Part shown: piece by piece, positions 1-5,087 of the stretch
How positions within the stretch are numbered: the stretch's first letter is position 1
Layout: the number at the start of each line of letters is the position of its first letter
NCBI GenBank assembly: GCA_021791345.1
Contig: JAJYWT010000208.1
Coordinates: 1 to 6,310 of the forward strand
Direction of reading: 5' to 3'
Length of the DNA: 6,310 bases
Origin: a bacterium
GTDB taxonomy: Bacteria; Chloroflexota; Dormibacteria; UBA8260; Bog-877
Translations under genes and position numbers: made by a program
The notes under the pieces: model-generated
Database searches by the model: none
Seen by the model: the letters and a program-made list of their open reading frames with translations, nothing else
What the model was told of the DNA's origin: nothing

Positions 1-285
1 GCCATCGTCCCCGCCCTCTTCGCCTCGGCGTACCCCCAGCTCCAAGCCCTGAACATCATGCGGCTGCACAGCCCGCAGAGCGCGGTGCTGTCGGCGGTGA
101 TCTTCAACGCCCTGGTGATCGTGGCCCTGATCCCGCTCGCCCTGCGGGGGGTGCGCTGGCGCCCGTCCAGCGCAGCCGCCATCCTGCGCCGCAATCTGCT
201 CATCTACGGTCTCGGGGGCATCGTGACCCCGTTCTTGGGAATCAAGCTGATCGACCTGCTGCTGACCGCTCTCCATGCTTACTGA
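1..285 (+). CDS. kdpB: KdpB, C-terminal end (K+-transporting P-type ATPase subunit B), partial
   Basis: KdpB is the catalytic P-type ATPase subunit of the KdpFABC high-affinity potassium pump in the cytoplasmic membrane. Only the last 94 residues are present; the 5' part lies before the window and frame 1 is open from base 1. The visible part matches the end of KdpB closely: [10 protein letters not shown] near the start, then [28 protein letters not shown], and the closing blocks [12 protein letters not shown] and GIKLIDLLL. It holds the last membrane helices (about residues 27-45 and 65-92 of the fragment) and none of the phosphorylation or nucleotide-binding domains. The TGA at 283-285 is followed at once by the kdpC ribosome binding site, so the two genes are surely one operon. 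kdpF and kdpA are expected upstream but cannot be seen. Assignment is firm from remembered family sequence. Confidence 0.96.
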
Positions 286-287
286 CC

Positions 288-293
288 GGAGGA
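288..293 (+). promoter_or_regulatory. Ribosome binding site of kdpC
   Basis: GGAGGA lies 8 bases before the GTG at 302 and just after the kdpB stop codon (283-285). It decides the kdpC start against the ATG at 275, which has only coding sequence of kdpB and no purine tract ahead of it. Confidence 0.7.
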
Positions 294-301
294 CCCTGGC
301 C

Positions 302-853
302 GTGATCTCCCAACTGCGATCCGCGGTGCTGCTGGCGGTGGGGGCCATCCTCCTCTTCGGGCTGGCCTACCCCTTCGCCGGCACCGGTGTCTCCCAGCTG
401 CTCTTCCCCCACCAGGCCAACGGGTCTCTGACCGCGCGCGGGTCCACCCTGGTCGGTCAGCCGTGGACCGGGCCGCAGTGGTTCCACGGCCGCCCTGACC
501 CGGACAACCCCCTGCGCCTTGACGGTGAGCCCGGGGCCTCTGGAGGGACCAACCTCGGCCCCAGGTCCCGGCAGCTGGTGGCCGCTGTCCGAGCCGGCGC
601 CGCCAAGCTGCGCGGGATGGGAGTCCAACCAACGGCAGATCTCGTCACCACCTCGGGAAGCGGGATCGACCCCGACATCACCCCTCAGGACGCCCTGGCC
701 CAGGTGGCGATGGTCTCGAGGAGCACCGGGATCCCGGAGTCGCGGCTGCGCCGGCTCATCCGCACCATGACCGTGGGCCCGGAGCTGGGCTTCCTGGGGC
801 CGTCCTACATCGACGTGCTTCAGCTCAACTCGGCCCTGGCCCGGATCCGCTGA
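302..853 (+). CDS. kdpC: KdpC, K+-transporting ATPase subunit C
   Basis: KdpC is the small single-span subunit of KdpFABC that supports the KdpA/KdpB assembly and nucleotide binding. The 183-residue product has one N-terminal membrane helix (about 7-28) followed by a soluble domain with the family blocks GSL (41-43), LVGQ (50-53), FHGRP (61-65), SGGTNLG (80-86) and VTTSGSGIDPDITPQ (115-129). Length fits the family (about 190 in E. coli). I chose the GTG at 302 because a strong GGAGGA (288-293) sits 8 bases before it and the protein then begins just ahead of the membrane helix. An in-frame ATG at 275 would add nine residues and overlap kdpB by 11 bases, but it has no visible ribosome binding site. 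The 3' end overlaps the convergent sensor gene by 29 bases. Function is certain; the start is the only doubt. Confidence 0.95.
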   Translation: MISQLRSAVLLAVGAILLFGLAYPFAGTGVSQLLFPHQANGSLTARGSTLVGQPWTGPQWFHGRPDPDNPLRLDGEPGASGGTNLGPRSRQLVAAVRAGAAKLRGMGVQPTADLVTTSGSGIDPDITPQDALAQVAMVSRSTGIPESRLRRLIRTMTVGPELGFLGPSYIDVLQLNSALARIR

Positions 854-3134
854 GCCCCGACGTCCTGGGAAGCGCGCTGTCTCCCAGGATGTGCACGTCC
901 AGCTCGCGGCAACGCTCGATGACCGAGAGCGCCACCGGCTTGTCCCAGGGAAGTCGGCGGCGCCGGCGCGGAGTGGGCATGAAGATCTCCGTCACCTGGT
1001 GCTGCTCCGCCCACTCGACCAGCGTTTCAGCCACCCCACCCATCAACTGGAGCGGCTCCAGCCTGACCCCATGGCGCTGGCACAGCGCAGCCAGCCGCTC
1101 CAGCTGGCGCGCCTCGGCCGGATCGGGTCGAGGCGAAACGGCCGCGATCACCACCAGCGAGGCGTCCTCCCGTCGCGCCGCCAGCAATCCCGCCTCCAGG
1201 AGCGGCCCCGCCCGGTCTATGCGGTCGGGCCGGAGCGCGATCATGATTCGCTCCTGAACCGGCCACAGGCCCTGGGCGCCGGCGGCCCCCGCGTATCGCG
1301 CCCTCCGGCGCTCGGTGTGGGCGGCCACGATCCGAAGGGCAGATGCCCGGAGCTCCTCCAAGAGGGGTTCCGAGAAGAGTTGGAGAGCGGCCCCCACGTC
1401 AAGCGGGGCGGTCACCCAGCCGGATCGGACCCGATCCCGGAGCTCGGCCGGGGGCAGGTCCACCAGCTCAATCTCGTCCGCACGGTCGAGCGCCTCCTGG
1501 GGGACAGCCTCGTGGTCCCCGTGCTCCTGGCTCCGGAACCGACCAAGCTCCTCCCGAGCCGACTCGAAGCCAGGCAGGTCGATCACCCCGACGGTGGCCA
1601 CCACGTTGATCCCGGCATCCTGCAGCCGCCAGACCTGCTGATACCGGGGCCTTCCGGTCTGCAGGTCGCGCAGGCCGAGGTCGTCGACGCAGACGACACC
1701 GGGGTTGCGGCGCAGGATGCCGTCCAGGTCTATGCCTCCGGTGGCCGGGGACGGCACCACCTTGAGCTGGCTGAGGAGGAACTCGGTGGTCGGACTCGGG
1801 GTGCCGGTGGGAGCCGCCACCACCACATCAGCACCCCGCCGCTGGCGGCGGAGCGCCTCCTCCAGCAGCCTGGTGGTCTTGCCCACCCCCGGGGCGTACC
1901 CGAGGTAGAGGCGCAGGCTGCCGCGCACCACCCCGGCATCTAGGCCCGCCAGCAGCGTGGCCGGATCCGGTCGGTCGCCGTCAGTCCACTGGTTCACCTT
2001 CCCCAGGCGTCGCCCGATGACGTGCAGGTGGCGGTCGCCGAGATCGGCGAGCAGCGCCCGCACCACTCCCGTTCCCGGCCCCTCCTTCGACTCGGTCGGT
2101 TCTGCCGCCACCATGACGTGAGTGGCTCCCACCTCTTGGGCCACCTGGAGGGCGATTTCCGCGGGGCGGGTCCCGACCTCCAACCGAACCTCCGCCCCCA
2201 GGTCCACGGCCAGTCCCTGGACCTTCGCCAGCTGCTCTGGGGAGGGAAACCGCGGACTTACGGCCAGAACCGTGACGGGAGCTCTCAGGCGCTGGCCCAT
2301 CCGAGTGCCACGTCTGATCAGACCGGGGGCATTATCACTGCAGGACGTCACGATGAGAACTCGGTCCCGCACCCCGGGAACGGCCTGGTCGTGTACAGAG
2401 CGGGACTCGTGCTGCACCACGTACCAGATGGCCAACTCCCGCAGGGCCGCCAGGTTGCTCTCTCGGAAGAAGCTGTTGAGCGCCAGCTCCACCCGATCAA
2501 ACGGGTAGATGTTGCCGTGGCGCATGCGCTTGCGGAGGGCTTCCGGGGTCATGTCCGCCAGGGTCAGCTCGTCGGCGGAGTCCAGCACCGGGTCTGGGAC
2601 CGTCTCCCGGACCGCGACTCCGGTGACCCGCTCCACCACGTCCCTAAGGCTCTCGACGTGCTGGATGTTGATGGTGGTCCACACCTCGATGCCCGCCGCG
2701 CGGAGCTCTTCGACGTCCTGCCATCTGCGCTCGTGCTTGACGCCGGGGACGTTGGTGTGAGCCAGCTCATCTACCAGCGCCACCCCCGGATGGCGCCGCA
2801 GCGTGGCCTCGAGGTCCATCTCCTGGATCTCCAGCCCCCGGTAGGCGAGGCGCATTGGCGGGACCTGCTCCAGTCCCATCGCCGCCTCCTGGGTGAGCGG
2901 CCGTCCGTGGGGTTGGACCCAGGCCACCACCACGTCCTTCCCCTTTGCGGCCAGGACGTGGGCCTCCTGGAGCATGGCGAAGGTCTTGCCCACCCCCGGG
3001 GCAGCTCCTATGAACACCTTGAGCCGGCCCCGGCTCGGACTCCCAGGTGTGTGCGGCCGGCCCACCCGGCTAGTGGGCTCACCCGCGGGGGCGTTCGACT
3101 CCCGCTTGCTACGATCGCTCTGGCCGTCAACCAC
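825..3134 (-). CDS. Stand-alone KdpD sensor protein with two tandem KdpD-N + USP units, no kinase
   Basis: This soluble protein of about 769 residues corresponds to the cytoplasmic N-terminal half of KdpD, present twice (numbering from the 3134 start). Unit 1 has the KdpD domain with Walker A GAAPGVGKT (43-51), DELAHTN (122-128) and NIQHVES (156-162), all hallmarks of KdpD, then a USP-like domain (about 257-374). Unit 2 repeats the order: Walker A GYAPGVGKT (412-420), VDDLGLRD in place of DELAHTN (483-490), then a second USP-like domain (about 627-751) with an Arg-rich patch. There is no membrane segment, HisKA or HATPase. In E. coli these domains sense or modulate signal output and aid KdpE-DNA binding; in Gram-positives the USP domain can bind c-di-AMP. 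The start is uncertain: I give GTG 3134; GTG 3065 also fits and leaves 12 residues before the conserved GRLKVF block. The ORF stays open to 3380, but that part is antisense to the kinase membrane region. It probably acts in trans on the neighbouring kinase (inference). Confidence 0.9.
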   Translation of the reverse strand: MVDGQSDRSKRESNAPAGEPTSRVGRPHTPGSPSRGRLKVFIGAAPGVGKTFAMLQEAHVLAAKGKDVVVAWVQPHGRPLTQEAAMGLEQVPPMRLAYRGLEIQEMDLEATLRRHPGVALVDELAHTNVPGVKHERRWQDVEELRAAGIEVWTTINIQHVESLRDVVERVTGVAVRETVPDPVLDSADELTLADMTPEALRKRMRHGNIYPFDRVELALNSFFRESNLAALRELAIWYVVQHESRSVHDQAVPGVRDRVLIVTSCSDNAPGLIRRGTRMGQRLRAPVTVLAVSPRFPSPEQLAKVQGLAVDLGAEVRLEVGTRPAEIALQVAQEVGATHVMVAAEPTESKEGPGTGVVRALLADLGDRHLHVIGRRLGKVNQWTDGDRPDPATLLAGLDAGVVRGSLRLYLGYAPGVGKTTRLLEEALRRQRRGADVVVAAPTGTPSPTTEFLLSQLKVVPSPATGGIDLDGILRRNPGVVCVDDLGLRDLQTGRPRYQQVWRLQDAGINVVATVGVIDLPGFESAREELGRFRSQEHGDHEAVPQEALDRADEIELVDLPPAELRDRVRSGWVTAPLDVGAALQLFSEPLLEELRASALRIVAAHTERRRARYAGAAGAQGLWPVQERIMIALRPDRIDRAGPLLEAGLLAARREDASLVVIAAVSPRPDPAEARQLERLAALCQRHGVRLEPLQLMGGVAETLVEWAEQHQVTEIFMPTPRRRRRLPWDKPVALSVIERCRELDVHILGDSALPRTSGLSGSGPGPS
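860..892 (+). terminator. Candidate hairpin terminator or 3' stabiliser after kdpC
   Basis: An inverted repeat begins seven bases after the kdpC stop codon. The arms are 860-870 and 882-892, 11 base pairs with one G-U pair and a core CCTGGGA/TCCCAGG, around an 11-base loop. No T run follows, so it is not a textbook intrinsic terminator. It may end or protect the kdpBC transcript, or be a pause site. The same bases encode the last residues of the opposite-strand sensor gene, so the dyad could also be chance from codon constraint. The base pairing is seen; the role is inferred. Confidence 0.35.
1875..1895. repeat. Direct repeat, copy 2 (Walker A codons of sensor unit 2)
   Basis: These 21 bases are identical to 2982-3002. 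They encode the PGVGKT phosphate-binding loop of the second KdpD domain. The conserved tract marks the internal duplication at DNA level, although the surrounding sequence has diverged. Confidence 0.75.
2982..3002. repeat. Direct repeat, copy 1 (Walker A codons of sensor unit 1)
   Basis: Identical over 21 bases to 1875-1895 and offset by 1107 bases, which is 369 codons, the period of the internal duplication. It encodes the Walker A loop of the first KdpD domain. Strong codon bias plus protein constraint can account for the identity, so it need not mean recent gene conversion. Confidence 0.75.
3107..3115 (+). promoter_or_regulatory. Candidate extended -10 promoter for the kinase-kdpE pair
   Basis: TGC followed by TACGAT fits the extended -10 form TGn-TAnnnT. 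Transcription would begin near 3122, leaving a leader of about 26 bases before the ATG at 3148. I see no good -35 box, as is common for extended -10 promoters. It lies in the short divergent region, inside the 5' end of the sensor gene if that gene starts at 3134, or upstream of it if it starts at 3065. No convincing opposite-strand promoter was found. Match by eye only. Confidence 0.35.
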
Positions 3135-3147
3135 TGCGATGGGAACT

Positions 3148-4377
3148 ATGCCAGCTGAAGTGCGCAGCAAGCCGTGGCGGGCACGGCGCTCGCCCCCGGA
3201 GCCCTGGCGCTCGCTACTCGGCACCCTACTCACCGTGGCCGCCCTCGCGGGTCTCACCGCGGTACTGGTGGCCCTCCGAGCCCCGGCCGAGATCCAGACC
3301 TCGGGGTTCCTGTACCTCGCGGTCGTGGTGCTGGGATCGCTCGCTTTTGGAGGAGTCACCGCACTGGTGGGATCTGTCACCTCTGCCCTGCTGATGGATT
3401 ACTACTTCCTCCCACCCGTGGGTCGGCTCACGATCTACTCGGCCCCGGCGCTGGCCGCCTGGGCGGCTTTCCTCCTCGTCTCCCTTGGGGTAGGGTTGCT
3501 GGCCACTTCGCGGCGCCGCAGCCTGGAGGAGCTGCGCACCGCCCGGGACCGGCTGGAGGCGGCCAATGCCGGGCTCGTGCGAGCGGGAGCCGAACTCGAG
3601 GCCAGCCTCTCGGCCCGCACTGACCTGGCGCGGACCGAGGCCGCCTTGGAGGCCACCCGCCGGGCCGAGGGCTTCCGGCGGGAGCTGCTGGCCACCGTGA
3701 GCCACGAGCTGCGCACCCCCCTGGCGGCCCTGCTCGGCCACGGCTCCGCGCTCGTGGAAGATCCGGGCCTGCCGCAGCTGCAGCATCCGGGCCACGCCCG
3801 GGCCATCGTGGCCGAGACGCGTCGGCTCGACCGCCTCATCCGCGACCTTCTGGAGCTGGCCCGGATCGACACCGGCCAGCTTGACGTGGAGATCGAGGTG
3901 ATCGACCTCTGCGAAGCCGTCCGCGAGGCCGCCCGGCGCTGGACCGGCCCGCTCTCCCCGAGACTCAACCTAGCCGAGACACCGGTCTTGGTGCTGGCGG
4001 ACTGGGACCGCGTCCAGCAACTGCTGGACAACGCGCTCTCCAACGTGTCCCGGCACGCCGGCACGCGGGAGGTCGCCATCGAGGTGCTCTCCCCCTCGCC
4101 GGTGCGGCAGACAGCCGCTGAATGCCGGGTCCAGGACCACGGCCGAGGCATCCGGGCCGAGTTGCAGGAGCATCTCTTCGAGCGCTATTCCCGGGACCGC
4201 CGGGGCGGAGGGCTTGGGGTGGGGCTGGCCGTCTCCCGGGGGCTGGCCGAGGCCATGGGGGGAGCGGTCTGGGTGGAGTCACCGGGGGAAGGGGCCGGAG
4301 CGGCCTTCCACTTCCTGCTTCCGCTGGAGGCGAAGCAACAACCGGTCGGCTTGACCCAGAAGGCCGCCGCGGTTTGA
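3148..4377 (+). CDS. kdpD: KdpD-type membrane histidine kinase lacking the N-terminal sensor (split KdpD, kinase half)
   Basis: A 409-residue membrane sensor kinase that would phosphorylate the KdpE-like regulator next to it. The N-terminal part has about four membrane helices (roughly 23-43, 53-69, 70-86, 100-119) with the YYFLPP sequence (85-90) typical of the DUF4118 membrane domain of KdpD. A charged, probably coiled-coil linker (about 122-178) stands where KdpD normally has a GAF domain. The catalytic part is complete: phospho-acceptor H186 in SHELRTPL, N box LLDNALSN with N295, G1 box D330-H-G-R-G, F box around F344, and G2 box 353-359. Compared with full KdpD (about 900 residues in E. 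coli), the KdpD and USP sensor domains are missing and lie in the opposite-strand gene. ATG 3148 has only a weak, too-close GGGA ahead; ATG 3139 is in frame and equally possible. The ORF extends upstream to 2893, but that part is antisense to the sensor gene. Confidence 0.9.
   Translation: MPAEVRSKPWRARRSPPEPWRSLLGTLLTVAALAGLTAVLVALRAPAEIQTSGFLYLAVVVLGSLAFGGVTALVGSVTSALLMDYYFLPPVGRLTIYSAPALAAWAAFLLVSLGVGLLATSRRRSLEELRTARDRLEAANAGLVRAGAELEASLSARTDLARTEAALEATRRAEGFRRELLATVSHELRTPLAALLGHGSALVEDPGLPQLQHPGHARAIVAETRRLDRLIRDLLELARIDTGQLDVEIEVIDLCEAVREAARRWTGPLSPRLNLAETPVLVLADWDRVQQLLDNALSNVSRHAGTREVAIEVLSPSPVRQTAAECRVQDHGRGIRAELQEHLFERYSRDRRGGGLGVGLAVSRGLAEAMGGAVWVESPGEGAGAAFHFLLPLEAKQQPVGLTQKAAAV
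4358..4363 (+). promoter_or_regulatory. Ribosome binding site of the kdpE-like gene
   Basis: AGAAGG lies 10 bases before the TTG at 4374, inside the last codons of the kinase gene. It supports the TTG start, which would otherwise be doubtful. Confidence 0.5.
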
Positions 4378-5087
4378 GCCGCGGGGGCTCGATCCTGGTG
4401 GTCGAGGACGACTCGGGCATGGGCCGGTTCCTTCGCGATGCGCTGTCAGAGTCCGGCCACCGGGTCCAATTGGTGGGGGACGGACGCGCGGCCCTGCGGG
4501 TGCTCGGCAGCGAGCACGTGGACCTCCTCATCCTGGACCTCGGGCTCCCCGACATCGACGGCATGGACCTCCTGCGCACCGTGCGTGAATGGGAGTCCAA
4601 CCCCCTCATCCTGGTGGTGAGCGCCCGGGGCCAGGACGCCGACAAGGTGGCGGCGCTGCGCGCGGGGGCCGATGACTACCTGGCCAAGCCCTTCAGCCTC
4701 CAGGAGCTCCTGGCGCGGGTGGAGGCCCGCCTGCGGCGGGCCGCGCCCCCACCGTCCGGGGGCGCGCTGGTTTCGGGAGACCTCCGCCTCGACGTCGCCT
4801 CAGGGCAGGTCCTCCGGCGAGGCGTGCCGGTCAGGCTCACCCCGATGGAGATGGGCGTACTGCACGAGCTCTGGCGTCACCGGGGCCGGGTGCGCACCCA
4901 CCGGGAGATCCTGGCCGCGGTCTGGGGCCCCGCCTTCACCGCCGAGCACACCTACGTCCGGACCATCGTCCAGCGTCTGCGGGCCAAGCTGGAGGACGAT
5001 CCGGCCCACCCGCGCTGGCTGACCACTCTGCCCGGGGTGGGCTACATCTGGCAGGAGACGCCCCAGCCGGCTCAACCGCCGAGGTAG
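4374..5087 (+). CDS. kdpE: KdpE-like response regulator (OmpR/PhoB family)
   Basis: A 237-residue DNA-binding response regulator, the expected activator of kdpFABC. Receiver domain, about 6-118: acidic pocket E11-D12-D13, phospho-acceptor D55 in LDLGLPD, S83 in SAR, and K105 in the AGADDYLAKPF block. These blocks are very like E. coli KdpE. A C-terminal winged helix follows (about 130-230), with LTPMEMGVL, the recognition-helix region TYVRTIVQRLRAKLEDD, and the ending PGVGYIW. The start is taken as TTG 4374 because it precedes the SILVVEDD strand by five residues, overlaps the kinase stop as TTGA, and has AGAAGG 10 bases ahead. The frame is open upstream to an ATG at 4122, which would put about 84 kinase-antisense-like residues in front and is rejected. 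The overlap implies translational coupling to the kinase. The 3' end overlaps convergent moaA by 16 bases. Confidence 0.93.
   Translation: MSRGGSILVVEDDSGMGRFLRDALSESGHRVQLVGDGRAALRVLGSEHVDLLILDLGLPDIDGMDLLRTVREWESNPLILVVSARGQDADKVAALRAGADDYLAKPFSLQELLARVEARLRRAAPPPSGGALVSGDLRLDVASGQVLRRGVPVRLTPMEMGVLHELWRHRGRVRTHREILAAVWGPAFTAEHTYVRTIVQRLRAKLEDDPAHPRWLTTLPGVGYIWQETPQPAQPPR

Follow-up and report, generated by a model that had tools for sequence, protein, structure and literature searches.

The analysed stretch of DNA (the window; 6,310 nucleotides, contig JAJYWT010000208.1 of assembly GCA_021791345.1, from a bacterium of the Dormibacteria, lineage UBA8260; Bog-877) is a kdp locus, in which one minus-strand gene encodes a soluble protein with the layout KdpD-USP-KdpD-USP. 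Each of its two successive units consists of a KdpD domain followed by a universal stress protein (USP) domain. The features of the locus are collected in Table 1. In the assembly of a near-identical genome (0.36% of bases differ from the window; 2.49 Mb, 142 contigs, 89% complete), kdpA (PF03814, 737 bits) and a full-length kdpB precede kdpC. The DUF4118, HisKA and HATPase_c domains of a full-length KdpD are located on a separate divergent gene and not in the tandem chain. An initial annotation, made from the sequence alone, had described a double-sensor KdpD; since the chain has no histidine-kinase part, this label was dropped, and the protein is better seen as a doubled soluble N-terminal half of KdpD.

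Table 1. Features of the kdp locus in the window (positions are those of the forward strand; residues are those of the tandem protein).
Feature	Position	Strand	Remarks
kdpB, 3' end	1..285	+	full gene in near-identical genome has TGES motif
kdpC	275..853	+	tail-to-tail overlap with tandem gene
Tandem KdpD-USP gene	825..3065	-	likely coding sequence; stop at 825-827
Tandem gene, alternative start	upstream GTG at 3134	-	would give 769 aa
Unit 1 KdpD P-loop domain, residues 38-247	2394..3023	-	
Unit 1 Walker A GAAPGVGKT	2982..3008	-	
Unit 1 Walker B Asp-Glu (D122 E123)	2766..2771	-	equivalent to E. coli D109 E110
Unit 1 USP domain, about residues 255-376	2007..2372	-	predicted model; Pfam only 21.7 bits
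Linker with short helix (391-396) into unit 2	1917..2006	-	
Unit 2 KdpD domain, residues 407-614	1293..1916	-	likely pseudokinase
Unit 2 Walker A GYAPGVGKT	1875..1901	-	
Unit 2 Walker B Asp-Asp (D484 D485)	1680..1685	-	
Unit 2 USP domain, about residues 625-755	870..1262	-	predicted model
Separate histidine kinase (DUF4118-HisKA-HATPase_c)	3139..4377	+	start 3139 or 3148; divergent from tandem gene
KdpE-like response regulator	4374..5087	+	TTG start would overlap kinase stop by 4 nt
moaA	5072..6298	-	

The presence of two homologous units, as initially annotated, was borne out by several searches. The profile PF02702 (curated cut-off 26.1 bits) matched unit 1 with 294.6 bits and unit 2 with 143 bits in the near-identical genome, and the whole window protein scored 431 bits; the Walker A loops of the two units lie 369 codons apart. 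Alignment of unit 1 with unit 2 gave 34% identity (E 9e-25) and a local score of 265, compared with 41.5 +/- 5.9 in shuffles. Only one PDB entry was matched in sequence by either unit, the N-terminal region of KdpD from Pseudomonas syringae (2r8r; E 2.5e-68 for unit 1 and 2.2e-20 for unit 2). The possibility that unit 2 is an unrelated P-loop protein was ruled out by its PF02702 score and its match to 2r8r. Among the NCBIfam models, the best match was NF038185 (KdpD_non_kinase), with 432.6 bits in two stretches, which is under the curated cut-off of 550. The USP halves score under the Pfam cut-off, yet the USP fold appears in the predicted model; a PDB sequence search with the USP domain of unit 1 gave no match, and a Usp-family search of the near-identical genome did not have the tandem gene among its matches.

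KdpD was reported in 2024 to be an atypical serine kinase that phosphorylates and thereby inhibits KdpB (PMC11018627). According to that report, E. coli KdpD needs the Walker A motif, W39/R190, D109 and E110 for the phosphorylation of KdpB at Ser162, E110A abolished the reaction, and a short Deinococcus KdpD/Usp protein also phosphorylates KdpB and is stimulated by cyclic di-AMP (c-di-AMP). The residues at E. coli positions 37, 38, 39, 109, 110 and 190 were scored in both units. Unit 1 of the window has K T F D E R and keeps all the residues required of a kinase, with the aromatic residue at position 39 being F and not W. Unit 2 has K T T D D R and falls short of this set, with Asp for Glu110 and Thr instead of the aromatic residue. 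The GKT of Walker A and an acidic Walker B position (D484 D485) are retained in unit 2, just as first annotated.

The same asymmetry was seen in the homologues with the intact unit first (n=68). Position 110 of their unit 2 is D in 63/68, N in 1/68 and E in 4/68, and the Walker A Lys37 is replaced in 43/68, while D109 and R190 are kept in 68/68. Most unit 2 copies have also lost H113, N143, Q145 and E148, all four of which are invariant in the single KdpDs compared. Meanwhile, unit 2 has near-fixed positions of its own that vary in singles (Y31, N102, R47 and R51), the Tyr at E. coli position 31 being 0.99 conserved in the intact-first group. The Bacilli-type tandems have the reversed order: the changed unit comes first, with E110 replaced in 40/45 scored first units, and the second units are intact in 46/46. 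Counted per protein (n=114), only the first unit is intact in 63, only the second in 40 and both in 6, with 5 unscorable. Single KdpDs were intact in 35/35 cases, of which 6 came from the homologue list and the other 29 from phylum members not belonging to the class. At one further locus (G159; L042 3545-6319), an extra KdpD domain with Asp for Glu110 lies late in a 925-aa open frame.

These residue patterns indicate that unit 2 is likely a pseudokinase. The initial annotation had paired a possible ATP- or partner-responsive sensor with a structural partner or a sensor of a different ligand; the asymmetry of one competent and one changed unit holds, and likely pseudokinase is the better name for the second. 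Several observations count against this assignment. The window copy of unit 2 keeps Walker A and the equivalents of D109 and R190 and so may still bind ATP, Asp in place of Glu need not abolish catalysis, and the extra single KdpD of L042, from the same class, also has Asp at position 110. The changed unit of the Bacilli type keeps K37 in 45/45, Tyr39 in 44/45 and H113 in 42/45, and the case for a pseudokinase there rests on E110 (lost in 40/45) and Q145 (lost in 45/45).

The distribution of the two-unit protein was examined in a homologue search, in which the 7996 candidates sharing most words were scored and the best 120 listed, and in a survey of 301 genomes of the phylum, 38 of them of its own class with its own genome included. 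With the profile built here, the first 114 of the 120 listed homologues have two KdpD domains and the last six have one. The nearest named ones among the matches listed belong to Candidatus Dormibacteria/Dormiibacterota (P0011 60%, P0016 58% and L058 56%). KdpD matches of at least 60 bits were found in 17 of the 38 class genomes and weak ones only (up to 26.6 bits) in 7, with none in 14. Both units are present in all 17 with a strong match: they are fused in one frame in 11, interrupted by contig ends in 1 (G282) and encoded by two overlapping genes in four (G079, G247, G275 and G296), and in G036 unit 1 is cut short. Outside the class, 71/263 genomes have a KdpD match of at least 100 bits, and no one-frame two-domain protein was found among their listed matches. 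One genome, G035, has two adjacent single KdpD/USP genes (L046 1180-3622) that are tree sisters and both kinase-intact, a duplication without fusion. KdpD domains were also seen within unusually long frames of one other phylum family (G264:C274:15033-15659 and G257:C58:56366-56992; 1336 and 1344 aa), and seven members of family f23 (G034, G043, G070, G078, G102, G110 and G281) have a second, separate KdpD-like frame of ~360-377 aa (107-118 bits) besides a longer one.

Many Bacilli carry tandems as well, and among the matches listed so does a cyanobacterial metagenome-assembled genome, Aphanocapsa lilacina (574 bits in two stretches). The names given to tandems in the source records are 'universal stress protein', 'histidine kinase', 'two-component system sensor histidine kinase KdpD' and 'hypothetical protein'. 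A tblastn search of plasmids with the Brevibacillus protein showed no tandem in the best 20 of 436 matching records, where both units hit the same places of ~1.1-1.2 kb. With both units in most listed homologues, in all class members with a strong match, in many Bacilli and in one cyanobacterium, the rarity suggested for the layout is not upheld. As to published descriptions, none of a two-unit KdpD was found in the open PMC literature searched by titles and abstract starts (subscription papers and supplements lay outside the search), and 'two KdpD domains', 'duplicated KdpD' and 'tandem KdpD' had zero occurrences in the open KdpD papers that were text-searched. The words 'duplicat' and 'double' are absent from the article text of PMC11018627, and its supplementary tables may still hold a tandem class.

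The placement of the gene differs within the class. The tandem gene lies on the strand opposite to kdpC in six genus members and in G282, and in 7/8 other class loci having kdpC the units are downstream of it on the same strand. The exception among these eight is G036, the kdpB and unit 1 of which are both cut at one point. In the window, the 3' ends of kdpC and the tandem gene overlap by 29 bp (825-853). A promoter and terminator scan of positions 2900-3300 gave nothing, and none were predicted in shuffles either.

Unit 2 is under purifying selection. In seven distinct comparisons with closer genus members, the ratio of nonsynonymous to synonymous substitution rates (dN/dS) of its KdpD domain was 0.015-0.081, versus 0.058-0.104 for that of unit 1 (WIN-L055 duplicates WIN-L051 with identical values, and WIN-L003 was too close and not used). 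A point on the other side is the comparison with the most distant genus member, L054, in which the ratio was higher for unit 2 (0.253) than for unit 1 (0.169). The USP identity in close genus pairs is higher for unit 2 than for unit 1, e.g., 0.93 versus 0.82 in WIN-L051. In the four separate-gene genomes, an ATG overlaps the stop of the first gene in 4/4, and the stand-alone unit 2 proteins begin with a stretch resembling the linker of the window protein. The strong conservation of the changed copy suggests that it may be a built-in regulatory partner.

The history of the units was studied using quick trees without bootstrap. In the whole-unit tree, the Dormibacteria unit 1 sequences group together (SH-aLRT 100), next to single KdpDs from Actinomycetota and Chloroflexota; unit 2 of the Dormibacteria lies on a separate long branch (support 99), and the Bacilli units group elsewhere with other tandems (Thermus, the cyanobacterium, P0027 and P0067; fork support 90). 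The units of P0027 (98) and the two genes of G035 (100) are sisters and look like further separate duplications. Four clade tests on the KdpD domains alone were uninformative (p 0.446-0.723); in three of them the constrained tree beat the free tree, which means that the free search was too short. With whole units, forcing Dormibacteria unit 1 together with Bacilli unit 2 costs 32.3 log units (p 0.0745), joining both changed units costs 16.6 (p 0.12) and joining both Dormibacteria units costs 8.0 (p 0.258), so that none of the three constraints is rejected at 0.05. We prefer independent origins of the Dormibacteria and Bacilli tandems as a reading of these trees that is not proven. As the free tree does not join units 1 and 2 of the Dormibacteria, unit 2 could be a more distant KdpD that was fused on, and its long branch makes such an origin unsure. 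Of the tandem duplication initially proposed, the two homologous units stand, with direct duplication of unit 1 as a possible but unproven source of unit 2.

Two AlphaFold2 models, one for each order of the units, predict that at least the USP halves form a dimer within the chain, apparently packed like those of tandem UspE; to this extent, the suggestion that the fusion mimics a KdpD dimer gains support. Against it are the pTM of only 0.59 for the Brevibacillus model, a possible bias of AlphaFold2 towards familiar dimers and the report that the S. aureus KdpD USP is mainly monomeric (PMC8214093). The c-di-AMP motif reported for S. aureus, SXS-X20-FTAXY (PMC4686210), is complete in neither unit, a point that also counts against the reading favoured below, the pattern having been run without a positive control. 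Unit 1 has SCS and, after 20 residues, VTVLA; unit 2 of the window has neither half of the motif and neither Ser of SXS. A relaxed pattern, likewise without a positive control, matched 0/26 USP sequences, and looser SxS counts are of little value.

Taken together, these data make it fairly probable, in our judgement, that the protein is soluble, pairs a kinase with a pseudokinase, holds a USP dimer within its chain and inhibits KdpFABC separately from the adjacent histidine kinase. Judging from published work on other KdpDs, unit 1 would be a working atypical serine kinase that, with ATP bound, would phosphorylate KdpB at the TGES serine and so shut down KdpFABC when potassium is plentiful. 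The target Ser with its preceding Glu is present at 164-167 of KdpB in the near-identical genome, the TGES serine is kept in 15/15 loci covering it, and the near-identical genome encodes a diadenylate cyclase domain. With these features and the absence of a histidine kinase part from the chain, it is simplest to assume that unit 1 inhibits KdpFABC post-translationally and that unit 2 is its packed non-catalytic partner. We infer that unit 2, a diverged copy kept as a pseudokinase, would pack its USP on that of unit 1 and support, position or gate the kinase half. Transcriptional control would lie apart from this, with the adjacent histidine kinase and the KdpE-like regulator. More tentatively, and with somewhat less confidence than an even chance, tandems of kinase and pseudokinase may have two or more separate origins of opposite polarity, the intact unit leading in Dormibacteria and following in Bacilli. 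Each would then have converged on a USP heterodimer within the chain, with a catalytically dead KdpD copy as the obligate allosteric partner of a pump-inhibiting serine kinase. The initial interpretation as a whole is partly supported.

Other roles of unit 2 were weighed against the same data. It could be a second sensor, the diverged USP and P-loop of which bind a different nucleotide or partner and feed the signal to unit 1. The better conservation of its USP in close genus pairs and the retention of GKT, D484 and R568 in the window fit such a role, which we nevertheless regard as unlikely: the Walker A Lys is missing in 43/68 unit 2 copies, which means that these copies do not share a role in binding ATP through the P-loop, and the window copy has neither Ser of SXS. 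Serine kinase activity of both units, on separate substrates or jointly on KdpB, would agree with the 6/114 tandem proteins having both residue sets intact and with the residues of the Aphanocapsa lilacina tandem (K T V D E R in one unit, K T F D E R in the other). The loss of Glu110 in 64/68 and of Lys37 in 43/68 unit 2 copies, the loss of H113, N143, Q145 and E148 in most of them and the reported effect of E110A in E. coli KdpD (PMC11018627) make this very improbable.

Action mainly in trans on the neighbouring histidine kinase, with the tandem protein replacing the missing KdpD N-terminal half and unit 2 serving for docking, is suggested by the histidine kinase itself, which showed no KdpD or USP domain in a domain search and adjoins the tandem gene divergently across the genus. 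It is improbable in view of the units following kdpC on the same strand at 7/8 other class loci with kdpC, and of the published short KdpD acting on KdpB (PMC11018627). The loss of catalytic residues would also be expected of a functionless relic, and this reading is hardly credible given the purifying selection on unit 2, the presence of both units in 17/17 class members with a strong KdpD match and their retention as separate genes in four genomes. Selection and distribution thus weigh against a relic, unless the sampled genomes are unrepresentative. A kinase with a pseudokinase partner is the reading that we retain.

How the KdpD serine kinase is switched when its chain lacks a membrane sensor has, to our knowledge, hardly been explained. 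With a natural kinase-pseudokinase chain that exists in two orders and has a conserved changed copy, one can address directly if the kinase acts as a dimer and which of the halves takes up the signal. For annotation, it means that KdpD tandems can hide behind the names 'universal stress protein' and 'histidine kinase' in Bacilli genomes.

Among the closest known systems is the short KdpD/Usp serine kinase of the Deinococcus geothermalis type, as described in PMC11018627, which has the same domains without the histidine kinase part and shares the kinase residues of unit 1; the tandem gene likewise adjoins kdpABC, and the TGES site of KdpB is conserved. The window protein differs in having two units per chain, the second likely a pseudokinase, and in its incomplete S. 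aureus c-di-AMP motif. Split serine kinase/histidine kinase systems are reported to be most common in Acidobacteriota and Chloroflexota (PMC11018627). The tandem resembles them in that the N-terminal half and the histidine kinase are separate genes, but its N-terminal half is doubled and converges on kdpC rather than following it. The kdp region of Alicyclobacillus acidocaldarius may belong to the split systems as well. The 373-position model of NF038185, a KdpD-like non-kinase potassium sensor, spans one unit, whereas the tandem matches it in two stretches. Unlike in tandem-type universal stress proteins (UspE, 4r2j and 5cb0), a KdpD domain lies between the USPs of the tandem, which are ~250 residues apart in sequence. 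The Bacilli tandems (Paenibacillus, Brevibacillus and Peribacillus) share with the window protein the doubled KdpD-USP layout, in most cases with one of the units intact and the other changed, and differ from it in that the changed unit comes first and keeps its Lys37.
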